Shown in pieces: positions 19,676 through 29,368 of a DNA stretch of 64,000 nucleotides. The stretch comes from Gluconacetobacter tumulisoli (GTDB lineage: Bacteria; Pseudomonadota; Alphaproteobacteria; Acetobacterales; Acetobacteraceae). The translations under genes were made by a program, and so were the position numbers. The notes beneath the pieces are model-generated. The model did not search any database, was not told the DNA's origin, and saw only the letters and a program-made list of their open reading frames with translations. Each line of letters opens with the position of its first letter. Positions within the stretch are counted from its first letter, which is position 1. The stretch lies in assembly GCF_014174155.1 (NCBI RefSeq), contig NZ_JABEQM010000001.1, positions 434,001-498,000 of the forward strand. The letters are read 5' to 3'.

Positions 19676-20575
19676 TCAGGGCAGCGCCCTGAGGCTTGCC
19701 GCCGTGTGGACCGCGCCGTAGCGCACCTGTTTTTCCTTCAGCCAACGCCGATAGGCGACCGACAGGGAGTCGGCGCGGGTCGGGATTTCCGCGCGTGGGT
19801 CCAGCGGCAGCAGGCGGGGGCGCTGGTTTTCCAGGATGATGCGGTCCTGCAGGAAGATACGTTGCTGGAACTGGATCAATTCCGCCTGGGGGGATGAATC
19901 GTCGATCAGGAACATGACCGGATGGGCCCGGCAGCGATCCGGCGCGGTTGGCTGGATGAACAGGGCGATCACGTCGGGACGCACGGGATCGTTCGGGCAG
20001 GATTTGTACAGCAGGGTCACGAACGGCGACGCGACACGGTAGATGTACTGCGCCTCGACCCCGGTGTGGGAGGAATGCGCGGCCTGTGGCTGATGGAAGC
20101 GGCAGTCGGTCGCCCAGACTTCGTCCACGTCGCGGCGGATTTCGGTATGATAGCGGGAGACTTCGGTCTCGGGCTCGGCCCCCAGGATGCCGGTATGGAC
20201 GAAGGGAAAATGCGCGAGGTCGAGGAAATTCTCGACCACCCGCAAGCCCGAGGCATGGACCTCGACCGATCCGCAGCAGACCAGCCGGCGGTCGGGTTCA
20301 TCGGCGTCGGGGATCGATACCGGGGCGGCGGGCGGCGTGCCCAGGCTGGTCCACAGGCAGCCATGCCGTTCGGCGACCGGCAGCGGGTCAGTGCGTCCGG
20401 CGCCCCGTACCGCGATCGCCCCGTTCCGATGACGCCGGACCGTCAGGTCGACGCCCAGCAGGCGCGTGCGCATGCCGGTGGGGCCGAGGCTGTCCAGGAA
20501 GCCGATGGCGTGCCAGCAATTCAGCACCGCGCGGTCGTCGGGATCGGCGCGGTCGGAGTGGCGGGTATCGGTCAT
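19676..20575 (-). CDS. Rieske-less mononuclear non-haem iron oxygenase (NdmC-like catalytic subunit)
   Basis: This 299-residue protein looks like the catalytic half of a Rieske-type oxygenase without a Rieske cluster. The mononuclear-iron motif is clear, NFLDLAHFPFVHTG, giving Asp119-x2-His122-x4-His127, and a later acidic ligand (Asp244) lies in FLQDRIILENQRP as in the VanA/N-demethylase group. The N-terminal region lacks both CxH and CxxH. Family knowledge: NdmC of the caffeine N7-demethylase also lacks a Rieske cluster and takes electrons from a Rieske domain on another protein. Here a free Rieske protein lies at 26069-26800. It starts 9 bp after the permease stop, last in the importer operon. 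Confidence 0.78.
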   Translation of the reverse strand: MTDTRHSDRADPDDRAVLNCWHAIGFLDSLGPTGMRTRLLGVDLTVRRHRNGAIAVRGAGRTDPLPVAERHGCLWTSLGTPPAAPVSIPDADEPDRRLVCCGSVEVHASGLRVVENFLDLAHFPFVHTGILGAEPETEVSRYHTEIRRDVDEVWATDCRFHQPQAAHSSHTGVEAQYIYRVASPFVTLLYKSCPNDPVRPDVIALFIQPTAPDRCRAHPVMFLIDDSSPQAELIQFQQRIFLQDRIILENQRPRLLPLDPRAEIPTRADSLSVAYRRWLKEKQVRYGAVHTAASLRALP

Positions 20576-20584
20576 GCATTTCCC

Positions 20585-21523
20585 CTATCTGATGTCACGG
20601 TGGTAGGGGACGCCCAGCGCCGCGGGCGCGGCCATGACGCGGCGTATCCGGTGCCAGACGACGACCGGGACGATGATGAAGGCGATGGTGCCCAGATAGG
20701 GCAGCATGTTCAGGATTGCGGGGGCGATCGGCCAGTTCCGGGCCTGCCCGACGAAGGACAGCGCGGTGATCAGGCCGAACAGCAGGCCGGACAGCGTGGC
20801 GGCGAACGGGCGGTAGCCGGCGAAGATCACCAGCGCCAGCGCAATCCAGCCGCGCCCGGCGATCAACCCTTCGGACCAGACGGGCACGTAGGTCAGGGTC
20901 AGGTAGCCGCCGGCCGCTCCCGCCAGGCCCGCGCCCAGCGTGACGTACCAGAACCGCATGGACGTGACGGCAATGCCCGCCGCGTCGGCCGCCGCCGGGT
21001 TTTCGCCCACCGCGCGCATGTTCAGCCCATGGCGCGTATGGAACATCACCCAGTGCGCCGCCGCCGGCAGCACCAGATAGATCAGATAGACCAGCAGGTT
21101 CTGCGCGAAGACCGCCGGCCCGACGATCGGCAGTGCCGACAGGATCGGGATTGCCACATGGCCGAAGGTGGCGGGCGAGGGCATGCCGGCATAATCGTGC
21201 CCGATGGTCGCCGACAGACCCAGCCCCATGAAGGTGACGGCCAGTCCGCACAGCACCTGGTTGGCGCGCATGATGACGGCGGCGCAGGCGAAGACCATGC
21301 CGCCCGCCGCCCCCGCTACTGTGGCGGCCAGCAGGCCCAGCCAGGGATTGGGGGTCGCGACGACGGTGATGATGGCGACGACCGCGCCCAGGGACATCAG
21401 ACCCTCGACACCCAGGTTGGTGACGCCGACCCGTTCGGCCAGGACCTCGCCCAGCGCGGCCAGCGCCAGCACGCCGCCTGCCAGCACGGCGGTGGCCAGC
21501 ATGCCGGTCAACAGCGCGATCAT
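20585..21523 (-). CDS. ABC transporter permease, nucleoside-type (BMP system), second subunit
   Basis: This 312-residue inner-membrane protein has about 8 hydrophobic segments and the BPD_transp_2 pattern: LGEVLAERVGVTNLGVEGLMSLGA at the start and NPAAADAAGIAVTSMRFWYV in the middle. It corresponds to the YufQ/NupC-type permease of the BmpA/PnrA-associated nucleoside importers. The ATG at 21523 overlaps the stop of the preceding permease as ATGA. Confidence 0.9.
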   Translation of the reverse strand: MIALLTGMLATAVLAGGVLALAALGEVLAERVGVTNLGVEGLMSLGAVVAIITVVATPNPWLGLLAATVAGAAGGMVFACAAVIMRANQVLCGLAVTFMGLGLSATIGHDYAGMPSPATFGHVAIPILSALPIVGPAVFAQNLLVYLIYLVLPAAAHWVMFHTRHGLNMRAVGENPAAADAAGIAVTSMRFWYVTLGAGLAGAAGGYLTLTYVPVWSEGLIAGRGWIALALVIFAGYRPFAATLSGLLFGLITALSFVGQARNWPIAPAILNMLPYLGTIAFIIVPVVVWHRIRRVMAAPAALGVPYHRDIR

Positions 21524-22575
21524 GGTGCGGCCTCCTTGCTTGTGGAGACGGGACGGTAATGGGCCAGTTCGTCGCCGATGGAGATCATGAACAGGACCAG
21601 GCCGGTAATGGCCAGGACCGTGGATGCCGTCAGTTGCTGGGTTTGCAGCACGATGCCGGAATCGAGGATGAAGGCCATCAGCAGCGCCGCCGGCAGCACG
21701 TTCAGGCATGACCCGCGCGCCAGGACCGCCACCACGATGCCGAAATAGCCGAAATTATTGGCAATGCCGCCTTGCAGGCGATGGACGGTGCCCGCGACCT
21801 CGGACACGCCGGCCAGGGCGGCCAGCGCGCCCGACAGCAGCATGACCGCCACGATGCGCGCCCGCACCGGTATTCCGGCGTAGCGCGCGGCCTCGGGATT
21901 CGCGCCGCTGATCCGGACCTCATAGCCCCAGCGGGTGCGGTCCAGCGTCGCTGCCAGGATCGCCACCACCGCCAGAGCCAGCGGGAAGCCCCAATGGACG
22001 ACGCCCCAGAGGTCGGGGATGGCGACCGGCAGCCGCGCGGTCGACGCCAGGGCGCCGGTCACGCGGTCATGCCATGGTCCGACCGCCAAGTATGATGTCA
22101 GCAGCGCCGCGACGAAATTGAGCAGCAGGGTGGTGATGATCTCGTTCACGCTGGCATAGGCCCGGGCCAGGGTCGGGACCAGGATCCACGCCATGCCGCA
22201 CAGCACGCCGCAGAATGTCATCAGCGGCAGGACCAGCAGGGCTGGCCCATGCACGAACAGGCCGATCCCGGCGGCGCCGATCGCCCCGGCGTAGAACTGG
22301 CCCTCCGCGCCGATGTTCCAGATGCCGATCCGGCTGGTGACGGTGACGGCGGCACCCGTCAGCATCAGCGGCGTCATGAACAGGGCCAGATCCTCCAGCC
22401 CGAAGCGCGACCCGACGGTGGAGCGCACGACCAGTTCGGCCAGCAGCGCCGGGTCGCGTCCCGACAGGGCCAGGAACAGGGTGGTCAGCAGCAGCGCCGC
22501 GATGACGGCGCCCGCCCGCCATATCAGCAGGCGCGTCGGGGAAACCGAGGGCAGGCGCTGGACGATGCGGGCCAT
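21520..22575 (-). CDS. ABC transporter permease, nucleoside-type (BMP system), first subunit
   Basis: This 351-residue inner-membrane protein has an N-terminal membrane segment after a short basic leader and the permease core GIWNIGAEGQFYAGAIGA, SVNEIITTLLLNFVAA and GANPEAARYAGIPV. This is the YufP/NupB type that pairs with the shorter permease. Its start overlaps the ATPase stop (ATGA). With the ATPase and BMP-type binding protein it forms a complete importer. Confidence 0.9.
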   Translation of the reverse strand: MARIVQRLPSVSPTRLLIWRAGAVIAALLLTTLFLALSGRDPALLAELVVRSTVGSRFGLEDLALFMTPLMLTGAAVTVTSRIGIWNIGAEGQFYAGAIGAAGIGLFVHGPALLVLPLMTFCGVLCGMAWILVPTLARAYASVNEIITTLLLNFVAALLTSYLAVGPWHDRVTGALASTARLPVAIPDLWGVVHWGFPLALAVVAILAATLDRTRWGYEVRISGANPEAARYAGIPVRARIVAVMLLSGALAALAGVSEVAGTVHRLQGGIANNFGYFGIVVAVLARGSCLNVLPAALLMAFILDSGIVLQTQQLTASTVLAITGLVLFMISIGDELAHYRPVSTSKEAAP

Positions 22576-24164
22576 CAGGTCGTCCCCCCTGTATGCGCGG
22601 CGGTGCGGCCGCCCATCAGCAGGCCGATGGTTTCCATGTCCGCCGTCGCGGCGTCGATCGTGGCCATCAGGCGGCCCTGGAACAGGATCCCGATCCGGTC
22701 GGCCACGTTCAGCAGTTCCTCCAGATCCTCCGACACCAGGACGATGGCGACGCCCCGGTCGCGCAGGTCGGTCAGGTAGCCCAGGACGGTCGCGATCGCC
22801 CCGATATCCAGCCCCCGGCTGGGGTAGGCGGCGACCAGGATCCGATCGGCGATCCGGATCTCGCGCCGGGCGACCAGGCGTTGCTGGTTGCCGCCGGACA
22901 GGTTGCGGATCGGCATGGCGTAATCGGGAATGCGGACGGCGGCCGCGTCGGCGATCTGGCGCGCCAGGGCCTGCGCCGCGCGGGGGGCATAGCCGCCGCG
23001 CCCGCCGATCGGCGGGCGATCATATTCACGCAGCGCCATGTTGTCGGCGATGTCCAGCGACGGGGCCAGACCGCTGCGGAGCCGGTCCTCGGGGATGTGA
23101 CCGATGCCGGCGCGCGCGAAATGCGCGGGGTCGGGCGTCGCGACCGGGACGCCGTCCAGCAGGATGTCGCCGGCGTCGGGGGCCAGCAGGCCCGTCAGCA
23201 CCTGCGTCAGTTCGCGCTGGCCGTTTCCCGCGACGCCGGCGATGCCCAGGATTTCCCCGCCGTGCAGGTCCAGCGTCACGTCACGCAGGGTTTCGATCCC
23301 CCGTTCGTCGCGGGTGGTGACGTGGCGCAGGCCCAGGGCCGGCCGGGCCGCCACCGGGGCGGCGCCGGGCGGACGGGCGCGCAGGTCGCGGCGGACGATG
23401 TCGCGCCCCACCATGGTCCGGGCCAGCATCGCGGGCGTGCAGTCAGCCGTCGCGAAGGTGCCGATCTTGCGGCCGCCGCGCAGGATGCTGATCCGGTCCG
23501 AGATGTCCATGACCTCGTCCAGCTTGTGACTGATGAGGATGACGGCGTTGCCCTGGGCGCGGAAAACCTGCAGGGCGCGGAACAGGTCGCGCGCCTCGGT
23601 GGGCGTCAGGACCGCCGTGGGCTCGTCCAGGATCAGCAGCCGGGCCTGGCGCGCCAGCACGCGCAGGATTTCGACCCGCTGCTGTTCGCCCGCCGACAGA
23701 TCGGCGATCCGGGCGTCGGGCCGGACGGCGAAGCCGAACCGTTCGGACAGGGCGCGGGTGCGGGCCTCCAGCACGCGGGTCGAGGCCCGGGGGGGCGTGT
23801 CGCGCCAGCCCAGATGGATATTTTCGGCCACAGTGAAGGCCTGCACCAGCTTGAAATGCTGATGCACCATGCCGATGCCGGCTCGGATCGCCTCCTGCGG
23901 CGAGGCCAGGCGTTGGGCGTAGCCGTCCAGCACGATCTCGCCCGCGTCGGGCTGATAAATGCCGGTGACGATGTTCATCAGCGTGGATTTGCCCGCGCCG
24001 TTTTCGCCCAGCAGGGCGTGGATCTCGCCCGGTCGGACGTCCAGGCTGACATCCGCGTTAGCGATCACGCCGGGGAAATATTTCGAGATCCCCATAAGCT
24101 GGAGGATCGGCGGCGTGCCGGGCGGCAGCGGCGGCGCTTCGCCGGAGGATGGTGCGTCAGTCAA
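22575..24164 (-). CDS. ABC transporter ATPase with two nucleotide-binding domains (nucleoside-type)
   Basis: This cytoplasmic ATPase of about 529 residues has a first domain with Walker A GENGAGKST, signature LSAGEQQRVEILR and Walker B LLILDEPTAVLTP. Its second domain has a degenerate nucleotide loop (GVAGNGQRELTQ) and signature NLSGGNQQRLV, the usual pattern for BMP- and sugar-type importers. The start is a TTG at 24164 overlapping the upstream stop (CTTGACTGA), preceded by GGAAGGGG. The first ATG is too far inside the domain to be the real start. Confidence 0.88.
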   Translation of the reverse strand: MTDAPSSGEAPPLPPGTPPILQLMGISKYFPGVIANADVSLDVRPGEIHALLGENGAGKSTLMNIVTGIYQPDAGEIVLDGYAQRLASPQEAIRAGIGMVHQHFKLVQAFTVAENIHLGWRDTPPRASTRVLEARTRALSERFGFAVRPDARIADLSAGEQQRVEILRVLARQARLLILDEPTAVLTPTEARDLFRALQVFRAQGNAVILISHKLDEVMDISDRISILRGGRKIGTFATADCTPAMLARTMVGRDIVRRDLRARPPGAAPVAARPALGLRHVTTRDERGIETLRDVTLDLHGGEILGIAGVAGNGQRELTQVLTGLLAPDAGDILLDGVPVATPDPAHFARAGIGHIPEDRLRSGLAPSLDIADNMALREYDRPPIGGRGGYAPRAAQALARQIADAAAVRIPDYAMPIRNLSGGNQQRLVARREIRIADRILVAAYPSRGLDIGAIATVLGYLTDLRDRGVAIVLVSEDLEELLNVADRIGILFQGRLMATIDAATADMETIGLLMGGRTAAHTGGTT

Positions 24165-25287
24165 GGCCGCTGACCCCTTCCACCGCCCAGTCCCATTGGT
24201 AGATATGGTCGTCGTCCATCGTGGCGCCGGCGGGCACCCTGACCCGCCCGGCGGCATCGCGGATCGGGCCCTGGAACGGGTTGTAGCCGCCCAGGATGCG
24301 CGCGCGCATGGCATCGGCCTGCCGTGCGATGTCGGGTGGCACGCTGCTACCCCATGTGTCGCGGTCCACGCCGTGGCCCAGCGGCAGGAAGCAGGGTGCC
24401 GCCCGCCAGGTGCCCGCCAGACGCCGGCGGACCTGTTCGACATAGAATGCCCGGAAATCGAGCATGACCGAGCTGACATAGGCGTCGGGGCCGTATTGCC
24501 GCATGTCGGTGTTCCACATCGCCGCCTTGATGCCGCGTTGCTGGGCCACGCGCAGATAGGCGGGTTCGTCCATGATGCCGCACAGGAAGTCGCACCCGTT
24601 TTCGGCCAGGGCGGTGCCCGCCTGCGTCGCCGCCTGCGGGTCGAACCAGGCGTTGATCGAGATGGCCTGCAAGCTCACCGCCGGATTGACCGCGCGCGCG
24701 CCCAGCAGCACCGCATTGGCCCCTGCATAGACCGAGGGAATCGGGAACGAGCCGACGAAGCCGATCCGGTTGGTCCGGGTCATCAGACCGGCCGCGATGC
24801 CGATGATGTAGCTGGCGTACCAATGGGTGATGTAATGCCAGCCCAGATTGCCGGTGACGGTGTGGCCGTCGCATTCCATGAAGGCGACTTCGGGCGCCCG
24901 GTCGGACACGTCGCGGATGAAATCGCCATAGTTCGAGGTCGCGATGACCATCTGCGCGCCCTCGGCGACGAACTGGCGGAAGATGCGCGTCGCGTCGGCG
25001 GAATAGGGGATGCTTTCGACATAGACGGTGCGCAGGCGCGGAAAGGCCTGCCGGACGGCCAGTACGCCCTGGTTATGCGCGGCGGTCCAGCCGCCGTCGG
25101 TGATCGGGCCGGTATGGCCGAAGGCGATCAGCGCGTCGGCCTCGGCCACCGGGGGCAGGAGGCGTGGCGCCGCTGTTGCCCGTAATGGCGCCGGGCGCAG
25201 CAGGGCGGACCCTGCCGCCCCGGCGGCCAGCCCCAGCATGCGGCGTCGCGGCGTCAGAAGCCGCCCCCGCGGCATCCGGCTGGTCAT
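24157..25287 (-). CDS. BMP/PnrA-family substrate-binding protein, Tat-type signal
   Basis: This 376-residue product has TPRRRMLGLAAGAAGSALL near its N-terminus, a twin-arginine-like signal instead of the lipobox found in most BMP proteins. The mature part reads DALIAFGHTGPITDGGWTAA, VAFMECDGHTVTGNLGW and RIGFVGSFPIPSVYAGANA, which is the BmpA/PnrA purine-nucleoside binding fold. Family knowledge allows nucleosides or other heterocycles as ligand. A GTG at 25332 could add 15 residues. It lies 60 bp after the nicotinamidase gene and overlaps the ATPase gene. Confidence 0.85.
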   Translation of the reverse strand: MTSRMPRGRLLTPRRRMLGLAAGAAGSALLRPAPLRATAAPRLLPPVAEADALIAFGHTGPITDGGWTAAHNQGVLAVRQAFPRLRTVYVESIPYSADATRIFRQFVAEGAQMVIATSNYGDFIRDVSDRAPEVAFMECDGHTVTGNLGWHYITHWYASYIIGIAAGLMTRTNRIGFVGSFPIPSVYAGANAVLLGARAVNPAVSLQAISINAWFDPQAATQAGTALAENGCDFLCGIMDEPAYLRVAQQRGIKAAMWNTDMRQYGPDAYVSSVMLDFRAFYVEQVRRRLAGTWRAAPCFLPLGHGVDRDTWGSSVPPDIARQADAMRARILGGYNPFQGPIRDAAGRVRVPAGATMDDDHIYQWDWAVEGVSGLD

Positions 25288-25347
25288 GCGCGATTCGGAA
25301 CGATCATCTGTTCGTCTTCCCCCCGTTTGCACTGCGCGCCGGTCTGG

Positions 25348-25953
25348 TCAGGCCCCCGCCAGATCGCCGGCCCGTACGCGGTGGATGCCGTGCCCGCCCA
25401 ATGTGCGCCAGGTGGCGTCGGGCGCGGGCGCGATCCCACGACAGGCATCTTCGATCACGAACGTATCGAAACCAAGGGCCTTTGCGTCGAGGGCGGTGAA
25501 GGCCACGCAATAATCCAGTGCCAGGCCGGCGATGAGGACGCGGCGTATTCCCATGCCCGATAGCCAGTATTCCAGACCGGTGCGGGTGACGCGGTCGTTG
25601 TCGAGAAAGGCGGAATAGCTGTCGACGTGCGGCGCGCGGCCCTTGCGGACGACCAGTCCGATCCGCGTCTGGTCCAGATCCGCCGCCAGATCCGCCCCGC
25701 GCGTGCCGGCGATGCAATGGTCCGGCCAGCTTCCGGCCGGGGCCGCGTTGCGGGGGTGGGTACTGGCGAAGGACGCGTGGCCGCGCGGATGCCAGTCCTG
25801 GCTGGCGGCCTGCTGGCCGAAGGGCAGGCGCGTCAGATGGTTGATGACCGGAATGACCGCGTCGCCGTCCGGCACCGCCAGCGGGCCGCGCGGCAGGAAA
25901 TCGTTCTGCACGTCGATGATCAGAAGGGCGTCGTGACCGGTGATCTGGATCAT
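25348..25953 (-). CDS. pncA: Nicotinamidase (isochorismatase fold)
   Basis: This 201-residue cytoplasmic amidohydrolase releases ammonia from nicotinamide to give nicotinate. The catalytic triad is visible: Asp14 in LIIDVQNDF, Lys104 in VVRKG, and Cys149 in GLALDYCVAFTA. Metal-binding residues lie in QDWHPRGH (Asp53, His55, His59). It is first in the operon with the BMP importer and Rieske-less oxygenase. Its presence there suggests the imported compound may be a nicotinamide- or pyridine-type heterocycle, or that this is the cell's NAD salvage gene placed by chance. Confidence 0.9.
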   Translation of the reverse strand: MIQITGHDALLIIDVQNDFLPRGPLAVPDGDAVIPVINHLTRLPFGQQAASQDWHPRGHASFASTHPRNAAPAGSWPDHCIAGTRGADLAADLDQTRIGLVVRKGRAPHVDSYSAFLDNDRVTRTGLEYWLSGMGIRRVLIAGLALDYCVAFTALDAKALGFDTFVIEDACRGIAPAPDATWRTLGGHGIHRVRAGDLAGA

Positions 25954-25977
25954 TGTCGGCCTCGGTTGGATGGCGGC

Positions 25978-26022
25978 GATGGAACATTGCGGTGATGGAA
26001 CAGGGATGGCACGGTTTTGGCC
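25978..26022 (+). promoter_or_regulatory. Possible sigma-54 promoter with upstream direct repeats, divergent intergenic region
   Basis: TGGCACGGTTTTGGCC at 26007-26022 has the GG-N10-GC core of -24/-12 promoters (consensus TGGCAC-N5-TTGC, one mismatch in TTGC). The nonamer GATGGAACA is repeated at 25978 and 25994, 16 bp apart, just upstream. The predicted start site would lie about 35 bp before the Rieske gene. A nitrogen-regulated (NtrC-type) promoter would suit catabolism of an N-heterocycle. Pattern-based only. Confidence 0.4.
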
Positions 26023-26068
26023 GCCGGGCTATCGGGAAGCAACCGACCGGCGTGGAGGGATGCGGGGC

Positions 26069-26800
26069 ATGGCCGAACGGATGCGGCCGGCGCATGCGCG
26101 CGCGCCGGCAGGGGAGACCGCCGACGGTGCCGGTCATGGTGCCGGTCATGGGAATGGCTGGTACCCGCTGATGCTGTCGATGGATCTGGAAGAGGGGACA
26201 GTGGCTGGCTGCACGGTGCTGGGCCGCGACCTGGTCGTCTGGCGCGACGCCGGCGGGCAGGCGCATGTCTGGGACGACCGTTGCCCGCATCGGGGCATGC
26301 GGTTCAGCCTGGGGATCGTGCGCGCCGGCATGCTGGCGTGCCTGTATCATGGATGGCGGTTTGGTCCGGACGGGCGATGCGCCCATATTCCCGCCCATCC
26401 CGAATTGTCGCCCCCGCCGACATTGCGCGCTGATCCACTGACCGCGGCGGAGCGGGACGGGCTGGTCTGGGTGGCCTTGGGCGACGCGCCCGCGCATGGC
26501 CCCGCCACCGGCGTGTCGGCACCATGCGTACCCGTTCGGTCGCTGGCGGTGGATGCCCCGGCGCAGGAGGTGGCGCGGGCCATCGGCCTGCCGGCAGGCA
26601 GCCGGGCGGGCGGCCTGGACCGTGACATCGACGGGCTGGTGCTGGCGGCGGTGCTGCCGGTCGACCGGGCGCGCAGCATGCTGCATCTGCTGGTCATCAG
26701 GCCGGCGGGTGTCGGCACGGATCGGGATCGGCGAAGGCGGGTGGCGGTATGGGGGCAGGATCTGCGCGACCGGCTCGAAGGCGCGTGGGCGGCGGCATGA
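26069..26800 (+). CDS. Free-standing Rieske [2Fe-2S] protein with a truncated oxygenase-like C-terminus
   Basis: This protein of about 243 residues has a complete Rieske cluster site: Cys72-Pro-His74 in DDRCPHRGM and Cys91-x2-His94 in ACLYHGWRF, within WRDAGGQAHVWDDRCPHRG, typical of ring-hydroxylating oxygenases. The C-terminal 120 residues contain VWVALGDAPAH but no iron-binding D-x2-H-x4-H motif. It therefore looks like an electron-transfer partner for the Rieske-less protein at 19676-20575. The start is uncertain (ATG 26060, 26069 or 26081); GGAGGG suits 26069. It overlaps the next gene as ATGA. Confidence 0.82.
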   Translation: MAERMRPAHARAPAGETADGAGHGAGHGNGWYPLMLSMDLEEGTVAGCTVLGRDLVVWRDAGGQAHVWDDRCPHRGMRFSLGIVRAGMLACLYHGWRFGPDGRCAHIPAHPELSPPPTLRADPLTAAERDGLVWVALGDAPAHGPATGVSAPCVPVRSLAVDAPAQEVARAIGLPAGSRAGGLDRDIDGLVLAAVLPVDRARSMLHLLVIRPAGVGTDRDRRRRVAVWGQDLRDRLEGAWAAA

Positions 26801-27456
26801 CCGATCTCGTGCTGCCCGATCTTGTGCTGCACGACGACGTGTTGGACGAAAATTGCTATCGCGTCCGCCTGTTCCTGTCGCTGCTGGGACACCGGGCCCG
26901 GACGGTCGCGGTGAATGTCGTGCCGGGCGGCGCGCAGGACAGCCCGGCCTTCCGCGCCATCAGCCCGGCGGGAATACTGCCCGTCCTGCGGATCGCGGGC
27001 GTCGATGTCTGCGGCGCGGGGGCGGCGCTGCTGGTGCTGGCGCACGAGTCAGGAGGGCACGGGTCAGGGACGTGGCTGCCGCGCGATCCGGCCGGCTTCG
27101 CGGAGGTCGCGCACTGGCTGGCGTTCGCGGGTGGGCCGCTGACGGCTGCGGTGCGGGCGCGCCGGGTCTTCCTGTTCGGCGAACCGGGTGACCGCGACGG
27201 ATTGCGTCGTCAGGGGGCAGCCGCCCTGCGGATCATGGAGGACCACCTGGCCCTGCGCTGGCTGGACGGCAGACCCTGGTTCGCGGGTGACGGCCCCACA
27301 GTGGCGGATGTCGCCCTGTTTCCGTCCTTCGCCCTCTGCCGGGACTGGGAAGTCGGGCATGAAGCCTTCCCCGCGCTGCGGCGCTGGATGCGCCGCATGC
27401 GCGCGCGACCCGGCTTCGTCACCATGCCCGGCATTCCCGATCCGGGCCTGTTCTGA
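26797..27456 (+). CDS. Glutathione S-transferase-like protein (NdmE-like position)
   Basis: This 219-residue cytoplasmic protein has an N-terminal thioredoxin-like part (ENCYRVRLFLSLLGHRARTVAVN, SPAGILPVLRIAG) and an all-helical C-terminal domain (EDHLALRWLDGRPWFAGDGPTVADVALFP), the standard GST layout. Its start overlaps the Rieske gene stop, so the two are produced together. The caffeine N7-demethylase also includes a GST-like protein, NdmE, that supports the complex. An ordinary glutathione-conjugation role is equally open. Confidence 0.85.
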   Translation: MTDLVLPDLVLHDDVLDENCYRVRLFLSLLGHRARTVAVNVVPGGAQDSPAFRAISPAGILPVLRIAGVDVCGAGAALLVLAHESGGHGSGTWLPRDPAGFAEVAHWLAFAGGPLTAAVRARRVFLFGEPGDRDGLRRQGAAALRIMEDHLALRWLDGRPWFAGDGPTVADVALFPSFALCRDWEVGHEAFPALRRWMRRMRARPGFVTMPGIPDPGLF

Positions 27457-27704: not shown

Positions 27705-28157
27705 ATGCGCCTTCTGCCCGCCCTTGCAGCAACACTTCTGATGAGCAGCCCCCTTCTTGCCCATGCGGCCGGGCCGGACTCGCAGACCGCCTCGGGGCAT
27801 GCCGATATCCTGGTCAAGAGCGACCATTCCTGGAACGGTGTCGCTTACCAGCATTATCCGGCCACGCCCCCGCAACTGACGGTCCTGCGTCTGACGATCC
27901 CGCCGCACACGGCACTGCCGTGGCATATTCATCCCGTTCCGAACGCGGGCTATGTCCTGGCGGGGCAATTGACGATTCAGGATCGCGCCACGGGTAAGGA
28001 GCAGACGTTCCATACCGGCGAAGCCTTCACCGAAAGCGTGAACGACCCCCATCGCGGTGTCTCGGGCAATGAACAGACCGTCCTGATCCTGACCTATTCC
28101 GGCACGAAAGGCACACCGACATCGGTGCCGCTGAAGGGAGAGAAAACGGAATACTGA
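27705..28157 (+). CDS. Exported small cupin-domain protein
   Basis: This 150-residue product begins with a clear Sec signal peptide (MRLLPALAATLLMSSPLLAHAA, cleavage after Ala). The mature part is a single cupin barrel: motif 1 is PWHIHPVPNAGYVLAGQL, with two histidines but Asn where Glu is usual, and motif 2 is GEAFTESVNDPHRG with its histidine. GGAG precedes the ATG. Function is unknown; similar proteins often bind a metal in the periplasm. Confidence 0.8.
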   Translation: MRLLPALAATLLMSSPLLAHAAGPDSQTASGHADILVKSDHSWNGVAYQHYPATPPQLTVLRLTIPPHTALPWHIHPVPNAGYVLAGQLTIQDRATGKEQTFHTGEAFTESVNDPHRGVSGNEQTVLILTYSGTKGTPTSVPLKGEKTEY

Positions 28158-28221: not shown

Positions 28222-28301
28222 AAACGTCATCTCGGTCGGCGACAATCGGAACCACCCATCGTCCGGTTCGTTGTTTTCGGACATGGAGTGTGGAGATAAG
28301 C

Positions 28302-28853
28302 ATGGAAGATTCCAATGATCGTTCCGGCCTGCCGCGCGGCATAGACCATGTCGGCGTGACGGTTTCCGACATCGATGCAGCCATTCGGTTTCTCGAGCGG
28401 GCTTTCGGTGCCGTGCCGCTGTACCGCAACGTCACGCCCGACCATCCGCAGAAAGGGCCGGAAACGGAAAAGACGCTCGGCCTCGCCGAGGGGACGGTCG
28501 TGCGTGAAATGTGCATGGTGGCCCTGGGGACCGGACCTTGCATCGAACTCTTTGAAATGCACGGACCGGACCAGCGTCCTGCCGTGCGTCCGTGCGATTT
28601 CGGCGTCCAGCATTTCGCCGTCTATGTCGATGACATCGAGGCAGGCTGCAGGCGTTTCACCGCGGCTGGCGGCACGTTGCTGACCCAGCCGCAGAAGCAG
28701 CCTTCGCTCGAGGAAGGACCCGGAAATTTTTTCTGTTATGGGCAGGCGCCATGGGGAATGATCATTGAATTGCTGGCTACGCCCAGTCGCGAACATTTCG
28801 ATGCGGTGTCGCCCGAGAAACGCTATCAGCCGCCGCCGAGGCAGGCAGGATGA
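28302..28853 (+). CDS. VOC-superfamily (glyoxalase/dioxygenase-like) protein
   Basis: This 183-residue cytoplasmic protein has two beta-alpha-beta-beta-beta modules of the vicinal oxygen chelate fold: GIDHVGVTVSDIDAAIRFLERAFGA with the first His ligand, CIELFEMH, QHFAVYVDDIEAGCRRFTAAGG, and APWGMIIELL with a late Glu. These are enough for a divalent metal site. Substrate unknown. ATG 28302 follows GGAGA. It overlaps the second cupin gene as ATGA. Confidence 0.83.
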   Translation: MEDSNDRSGLPRGIDHVGVTVSDIDAAIRFLERAFGAVPLYRNVTPDHPQKGPETEKTLGLAEGTVVREMCMVALGTGPCIELFEMHGPDQRPAVRPCDFGVQHFAVYVDDIEAGCRRFTAAGGTLLTQPQKQPSLEEGPGNFFCYGQAPWGMIIELLATPSREHFDAVSPEKRYQPPPRQAG

Positions 28854-29368
28854 TACGTATCGCCATTCTTGCCGGGTTCGTTTCGTCTGCCTGGATGATC
28901 GGACCTGCCCGCGCGGACACTCCTCCGCCACGTCCGACGATGTGGTACTGGCATAACTGGACGGATCATGCGGGCGTCAGCCACATGACGAAATGTCCGG
29001 TTCGTGACTTTGATCTCAAGACCATGTCGAAACCTGCCGGTCCCCAATGGCAGGACAGGATGAAGAACGAGCACGGCCAGGTGATCTTTACCGTGCAACC
29101 GGCGCACTGGAACGGCGCGTGGCATCCCGATCCGAAGGTACAGTGGATCATACCGCTCAGTGGCGCGTGGTATGTCACGGCCATGGACGGCCACAAGGTT
29201 GTCATGGGACCGGGAGACGTGTCTGTGGGTGAAGACCAGCTCAGCCGGAAGGATCAGCAGGGCCATGTCGGGCACGATGCCGGAAATGTCGGTGACGGAC
29301 CGGCGGAATTGATGGTCATTCAGACGGATGAAACGCCCACGACCGACCGGCCTTGCCGATTCAGGTAG
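28850..29368 (+). CDS. Exported cupin-like protein
   Basis: This 172-residue product starts with a Sec signal (MIRIAILAGFVSSAWMIGPARA). The core VQWIIPLSGAWYVTAMDGHKVVMGPGDVSVGED and DQQGHVGHDAGNVGDG is a cupin pattern with histidines in the second motif. It is translationally coupled to the VOC gene. I do not recognise the pathway. The pair plus the first cupin may act on the same small molecule on both sides of the inner membrane. Confidence 0.75.
   Translation: MIRIAILAGFVSSAWMIGPARADTPPPRPTMWYWHNWTDHAGVSHMTKCPVRDFDLKTMSKPAGPQWQDRMKNEHGQVIFTVQPAHWNGAWHPDPKVQWIIPLSGAWYVTAMDGHKVVMGPGDVSVGEDQLSRKDQQGHVGHDAGNVGDGPAELMVIQTDETPTTDRPCRFR

Follow-up and report, generated by a model that had tools for sequence, protein, structure and literature searches.

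The window analysed here, a 64,000-nucleotide stretch of the Gluconacetobacter tumulisoli genome (assembly GCF_014174155.1, contig NZ_JABEQM010000001.1, positions 434,001–498,000 of the forward strand), contains an eight-gene locus that appears to encode a Rieske oxygenase whose two metal centres lie on separate proteins. We assign a probability of roughly 0.6 to the reading that these products form a heteromeric split Rieske oxygenase that acts as a purine N-demethylase and feeds xanthine dehydrogenase. Specifically, the two metal centres of a single alpha subunit would be distributed over two proteins with complementary losses: a Rieske-less mononuclear-iron protein (FeOx) would provide the substrate pocket and the mononuclear iron, and a free-standing Rieske protein would carry the [2Fe-2S] cluster and pass electrons to FeOx through the contact between the two proteins. 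Electron transfer between neighbouring subunits is familiar from ordinary Rieske oxygenases. A glutathione S-transferase-like (GST-like) protein, in most relatives together with a small acylphosphatase-like protein, would hold the complex together, and a BMP-type ATP-binding cassette (ABC) transporter would import the substrate. The relationship to NdmC makes oxidative purine N-demethylation the most likely reaction, after which the demethylated base would be passed to the deaminases and xanthine dehydrogenase of purine catabolism. Complex formation, the electron route, demethylation and a methyl-purine substrate are steps that we infer from sequence comparisons.

Division of the metal centres and its conservation

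The eight genes, which an earlier examination of this DNA (the original prediction) had placed in two divergent groups, were recovered at the same positions with Pfam and NCBIfam. The leftward group comprises a nicotinamidase, a BMP binding protein, a double ATPase, two permeases and FeOx; the rightward group comprises the Rieske gene followed by the GST-like gene. FeOx (19676–20575, minus strand; 299 residues), a member of the NdmC family, matches Pfam VanA_C at 73 bits and has no Rieske domain in Pfam; its best solved relatives in the PDB are SxtDIOX, SxtT, NdmA and NdmB. The Rieske protein (26069–26800, plus strand; Pfam Rieske, 80 bits) has the cluster ligands Cys72/His74 and Cys91/His94, lacks an iron-site motif, matches the N-terminal domains of these four and further Rieske oxygenases in the PDB, and bears about 100 extra residues at its C-terminus. 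For both halves, SxtT/SxtDIOX and NdmA, which are single-chain enzymes, rank with the best matches of known structure. The GST-like gene (26797–27456, plus strand; Pfam GST_C), whose product appears to be the counterpart of NdmE, overlaps the Rieske gene in the ATGA at 26797–26800, and the two are translationally coupled, as had been predicted.

A search of 200 genomes of the order, in which a FeOx protein of at least 55% identity defined a carrier, found 29 carriers, our own genome included. The Rieske and GST-like genes adjoin FeOx in 27 of the 29 and are paired together elsewhere in the other two. From GTDB we took the best 80 of at least 524 stretches encoding a FeOx relative (all at least 57% identical, largely from Rhizobiaceae and Acetobacteraceae). 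Within about 9 kb of FeOx, these contain the Rieske gene in 76 loci, the GST-like gene in 74 and the BMP-type importer in 63; for the four loci without a nearby Rieske gene, one was found elsewhere in the genome. In the wider class, FeOx was detected at E 1e-40 in 8 of 385 genomes, again including our own. Co-occurrence of FeOx, the Rieske protein and the GST-like protein is therefore strong, the linkage of importer to FeOx is clear from gene neighbourhoods, and the system is carried by many plant-associated bacteria. The original prediction had proposed checking all eight genes for co-occurrence; the three oxygenase genes held together, but the nicotinamidase, present in 9 of the 80 GTDB loci, did not.

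Eleven of the GTDB loci repeat loci of the order-wide set and were removed before counting over 99 distinct loci. The iron motif is kept in all 99 FeOx proteins and the Rieske motif in none (0/99); likewise, all 93 complete Rieske partners keep the cluster motif and none (0/93) has the iron motif. These 93 are the complete Rieske open reading frames among the 99 loci; in L102 and L110 the gene runs off the end of the locus, and the Rieske gene of L041, L042, L150 and L163 sits elsewhere in the genome. The FeOx and Rieske genes diverge in 91 of the 93 pairs. At the level of motifs, these counts establish the division of the metal centres and its conservation, and they bear out the complementary absences that had been noted for this one locus.

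The assignment of the iron ligands requires revision. Asp119, His122 and His127, which had been proposed as the iron triad, are indeed invariant in FeOx, and so is Asp244, found in 48 of 48 aligned sequences, where it pairs with the last acidic residue of the EEDIRIL motif of SxtDIOX. The Asp of D-x2-H-x4-H (Asp119) we take to be the inter-subunit bridging Asp of the superfamily. The original three residues are therefore probably not the iron triad, and the third iron ligand is probably Asp244 rather than Asp119.

Kinship with the NdmCDE demethylase

Excerpts of a review (PMC4408171) describe NdmC as the iron subunit of a 7-methylxanthine N7-demethylase, complexed with NdmD and the GST-like NdmE, and term NdmCDE the first reported Rieske domain separated from its oxygenase. 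The likeness to this system that had been proposed for the locus extends to all three components. The references for NdmC were plasmid-encoded NdmC-type proteins from Pseudomonas and Paraburkholderia, not NdmC of P. putida CBB5 itself; the plasmids of P. putida MT178 and Paraburkholderia caffeinilytica CF1 encode two full-length oxygenases with NdmC-type, NdmD-type and GST proteins and formaldehyde genes, which is the set described in those excerpts for caffeine N-demethylation (PMC4408171). FeOx is 44–46% identical to three NdmC-type proteins (MT178, CF1 and plasmid p420352) and 24–33% identical to seven full-length oxygenases, of which its own genome encodes two, and the GST-like protein is 33–38% identical to NdmE-type proteins. 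The last 100 residues of the free Rieske protein match the NdmD linker domain (hhalign 87%, P 3.7e-6, 91 columns; hhalign probability of at most 0.1% for six column-shuffled controls against the linker). Together, these comparisons establish the sequence kinship with NdmC, NdmD and NdmE.

Given the linker match, the counterpart of the free Rieske subunit is the entire N-terminal half of NdmD, and NdmD itself looks like a free Rieske protein fused to a reductase. Consistent with the original prediction, no reductase is fused here: the Rieske protein is a stand-alone open reading frame, 198–335 residues long in the 93 loci, and neither the window nor any of 109 loci (L033–L061 and L085–L164) has a match to the NdmD-type reductase half at E 1e-5. 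In a quick tree with several long branches and a rooting that is not strong, the NdmC-type proteins fall inside the split family, beside FeOx proteins with free Rieske partners, and by this nesting the Rieske–reductase fusion looks derived.

Compared through the plasmid loci, the split system resembles NdmCDE of P. putida CBB5 in three respects: the iron oxygenase is of the same family and lacks a Rieske domain, a GST-like subunit is encoded, and the Rieske domain resides on another polypeptide. The split loci differ in that the Rieske protein is unfused, an acylphosphatase-like gene is usually added, and a BMP importer and purine deaminases take the place of NdmA/NdmB and formaldehyde genes; a search for ndmA/ndmB neighbours in the window and the 109 loci gave Rieske-domain matches only. 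Homologues of NdmCDE have been noted in 18 organisms, including Sinorhizobium and Mesorhizobium (Summers 2013, as cited in PMC4408171), and the excerpts of that review mention no unfused Rieske form for them. The Sinorhizobium and Mesorhizobium homologues belong to the same FeOx family, and the pSymA locus of S. meliloti 2011 has a fused Rieske–reductase. A two-chain analogue may be seen in the chlorophyllide a oxygenase of Micromonas, which passages of one paper (PMC9615114) place on two polypeptides and suggest to be a heterodimer, but it is algal, acts on another substrate and is likened here from its description, at superfamily level.

An unfused Ndm-like cluster also lies on pKNA08, typed as a conjugative plasmid, of the kombucha isolate Komagataeibacter nataicola DS12 (NZ_CP118673.1, 116.8–123.4 kb; L180). 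It comprises two FeOx–Rieske–GST sets and a separate PDR/VanB reductase that is 42% identical to the reductase half of NdmD, and the plasmid encodes two full-length oxygenases that share 67% and 55% identity with one NdmA/B-like protein of MT178. At near-identity, this record alone among the seven matched in a plasmid collection covers the cluster. Among the papers that our literature searches listed, none joins Komagataeibacter, caffeine and Rieske, none combines the BMP family, guanine deaminase and Rieske, and none contains the phrase “free-standing Rieske”; a term search of a 2025 Rieske review (PMC12445004) gave no mention of NdmC. NdmCDE would shift from a caffeine curiosity to one branch of a large split Rieske oxygenase family, with NdmD suggested to have arisen from a free Rieske subunit and a reductase. 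Having the metal centres on two proteins could also allow inter-subunit electron transfer to be studied by mixing separately made subunits.

Purine enzymes and the likely substrate

The heterocyclic or nucleoside-like substrate envisaged originally still fits, and the neighbouring genes would narrow it to purines. Within 9 kb of FeOx, a guanine-deaminase-like gene is present in 45 of the 80 GTDB loci and an 8-oxoguanine-deaminase-like gene in 29; in relatives, two guanine-deaminase-like neighbours scored 349 and 346 bits against a cut-off of 375, and two of the 8-oxoguanine type 556 and 555 bits against 532. An adenine-deaminase-like cluster spans 18 loci (354 bits in the one member tested; cut-off 472.5) and an adenosine deaminase cluster spans 7 (272 bits in the one member tested; cut-off 217). 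Guanine- and 8-oxoguanine-deaminase-like genes recur in loci of both Acetobacteraceae and Rhizobiales, and the adenine- and adenosine-deaminase-like genes in those of Rhizobiales.

The 29 carriers were compared with 29 non-carriers (58 of the 200 genomes), the non-carriers being hand-picked, from genera g1, g12, g21 and g35 only, and the bit-score ranges that define the deaminase paralogues having been set after the score lists were viewed. An ordinary guanine deaminase (515–582 bits) is present in all 58 of these Acetobacteraceae genomes. A divergent paralogue (330–370 bits) is present in 18 of 29 carriers versus 1 of 29 non-carriers (Fisher P 2e-6), a pattern seen again within the four genera, and the sole exception is G114, an Acetobacteraceae genome that holds only fragments of FeOx and the Rieske gene, less than 1 kb apart. 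In a second quick tree, also with several long branches, the divergent type groups with guanine deaminases of rhizobial loci and separately from the ordinary enzymes. The locus-type 8-oxoguanine deaminase paralogue (542–563 bits) is present in 23 of 29 carriers versus 2 of 29 non-carriers (P 2e-8), and xanthine dehydrogenase exceeds its cut-off in 28 of 29 versus 20 of 29 (P 0.012); OHCU decarboxylase is present in 58 of 58. These counts demonstrate co-occurrence of the deaminases with the system in genome sequences. A special guanine deaminase, an NdmC-type oxygenase and an end point at xanthine together point to a methylated guanine, and the most attractive candidate would be 7-methylguanine, converted to 7-methylxanthine by the divergent guanine deaminase and then to xanthine by the split complex.

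Several observations weigh against purine N-demethylation or against the evidence for it. The Fisher tests are not corrected for phylogeny; relatives of the 8-oxoguanine deaminase at 490–511 bits occur in 2 more carriers and 3 more non-carriers; and neither deaminase paralogue is present in our own genome or its sister. No formaldehyde-detoxification gene of the kind that flanks NdmCDE was found in the window or the 109 loci, which gave no FghA match and a single FrmA (dehydrogenase) match at 27%. A VanB-type reductase (E 1e-20) is found in 11 of 29 carriers versus 12 of 29 non-carriers (P 1.0). Finally, an origin of the Rieske C-terminal domain as a shrunken catalytic domain is weakly supported: the domain aligns to FeOx at P 0.017 and the NdmD linker does so at P 0.0012 and 19% (hhalign), and against full-length oxygenases the two give no signal (P 0.58 and 0.59).

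Other chemistries deserve consideration. The split complex might instead be a molybdenum-free hydroxylase that, like HpxDE, acts at C8 of a purine, giving 8-oxoguanine from guanine or urate from xanthine, with the 8-oxoguanine-deaminase-like enzyme leading on to urate. Two neighbours above the curated cut-off for 8-oxoguanine deaminase (556 and 555 against 532 bits) fit this, as does the 31% identity of FeOx to HpxD-like full-length oxygenases. HpxDE and full-length NdmA and NdmB share the superfamily and act on purines, although they hold both metal centres on one chain and are 24–31% identical to FeOx. Yet HpxDE is a single-chain oxygenase with a reductase partner that replaces xanthine dehydrogenase, and the split system has two chains in genomes of which 28 of 29 have xanthine dehydrogenase, so that no replacement is needed; this also disfavours the HpxDE-like replacement that the deaminase neighbours had brought to mind. 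Given, in addition, that FeOx is closer to NdmC-type proteins (44–46%) and that an HpxD-like oxygenase next to a VanB-type reductase is already encoded in our own genome, we consider C8-hydroxylation unlikely. A heterocyclic substrate that is neither a purine nor methylated, for instance a triazine-like compound or a derivative of nicotinamide, seems to us equally improbable; on that view the split complex would oxidise this heterocycle and the purine deaminases would be hitch-hikers of the same amidohydrolase family. The nicotinamidase within the locus, the TRZ/ATZ-type amidohydrolases of some loci and a second paralogous locus that joins FeOx to another amidohydrolase and a molybdenum hydroxylase would suit such a substrate; however, the nicotinamidase is the sole full-length copy of its genome, which disfavours a nicotinamide derivative, and is rare at these loci, and purine-deaminase-like genes recur across two groups of bacteria.

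That the Rieske and GST-like proteins are decayed or regulatory remnants, with FeOx served by another Rieske donor, seems very improbable. Their sequences have drifted further, with identities to the window proteins outside the genus of about 35–50% for the Rieske protein and 26–55% for the GST-like protein, against 52–67% for FeOx in the same loci. Nonetheless, the cluster ligands are intact in every complete partner (93/93), the divergent gene order is kept in 91 of 93, a relocated Rieske gene is accompanied by a GST or acylphosphatase-like gene, and the one genome with a fragmentary FeOx has a fragmentary Rieske gene as well.

Purine N-demethylation thus remains our preferred reading, and it invites a broader and distinctly more tentative proposal. 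RNA caps, rRNA and tRNA are sources of 7-methylguanine, and the system may represent a widespread RNA-recycling route of plant-associated Alphaproteobacteria, made up of BMP–ABC import, the divergent guanine deaminase and a four-protein N7-demethylase of iron, Rieske, GST-like and acylphosphatase-like subunits, from which NdmCDE would be a later branch that arose by Rieske–reductase fusion. If the substrate is indeed a methylated RNA purine, this would be a bacterial route of which the paper listings that we searched give no description.

Two further gene arrangements were observed. In four genomes of genus g21 that have no xanthine dehydrogenase match (G047, G050, G053 and G121), a FeOx-like open frame of 349–369 residues is found in the vicinity of a guanine deaminase, at a distance of about 1.6 kb from the gene for OHCU decarboxylase; this may point to an HpxD-type route there. 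A second FeOx subfamily (L061, L150 and L163) sits beside a different TRZ/ATZ-type amidohydrolase, in L150 also with a PucCDE-like molybdenum hydroxylase, and in the L150 and L163 genomes the corresponding Rieske gene is located at another site, adjoining the acylphosphatase-like gene.

Accessory genes and surroundings

A small acylphosphatase-like protein, detected with an iterated profile, is encoded in 80 of the 99 distinct loci (for example L104:2150-2467, L058:10239-10598 and L180:10865-11149). In all 78 loci where this could be measured, its gene lies on the same strand as the Rieske gene and at most 100 bp upstream of it. Three members tested exceeded no Pfam or NCBIfam cut-off; one reached 13.3 bits with PF00708 (cut-off 22.5) and the other two gave no match. 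The window lacks the gene, and at E 0.01 so do 12 of 16 genomes searched (our own strain, its sister G. azotocaptans, two of G. diazotrophicus type and 8 others); the fused-NdmD loci L175, L176, L178 and L179 gave no match to it either. Since those genomes lack it, it cannot be essential everywhere.

The nicotinamidase gene pncA (25348–25953, minus strand) encodes a Pfam Isochorismatase protein that matches the NCBIfam bifunctional nicotinamidase at 185 bits (cut-off 174). Its genome has no other full-length nicotinamidase match, 57 of 58 genomes searched have a match somewhere, and the 9 GTDB loci that include one all belong to Gluconacetobacter or Acetobacter. The sole full-length copy and the near-universal matches lead us to read it as a housekeeping enzyme of NAD salvage, probably outside the system, and the functional part given to it originally is not supported. 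The expectation that the electron donor lies elsewhere still stands. A VanB-type reductase as general donor was rejected for lack of association with carriers. In our own genome, an HpxD-like oxygenase and an adjacent VanB-type reductase lie at G000:C4:276182-277880, and that reductase is a possible donor in trans.

The complete BMP-type importer that had been predicted is present, and it fits the BMP/PnrA-type definition in Pfam and NCBIfam: a BMP/PnrA-type substrate-binding protein (24157–25287; Pfam Bmp), a double ATPase (22575–24150, start codon provisional; ABC_tran) and permeases B (21520–22575) and A (20585–21523; both BPD_transp_2), all on the minus strand. The stop of permease B overlaps the start of permease A, from which FeOx is separated by 9 bp. 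The importer falls below the cut-offs of the B6 ABC transporter families (NCBIfam NF047927-30), with 45, 144–148 and 450 bits against 400, 400–465 and 670. Riboswitch control was considered and rejected: an Rfam search of the window returned four tRNAs and RNase P only, and 11 related loci gave no match. Downstream of the GST-like gene, a VOC-family protein (28290–28853) and two cupin-like secreted proteins (27705–28157 and 28850–29368) were recognized by eye, and in a clustering of related loci the proteins of 28290–28853 and 27705–28157 group only with the sister species locus L033.

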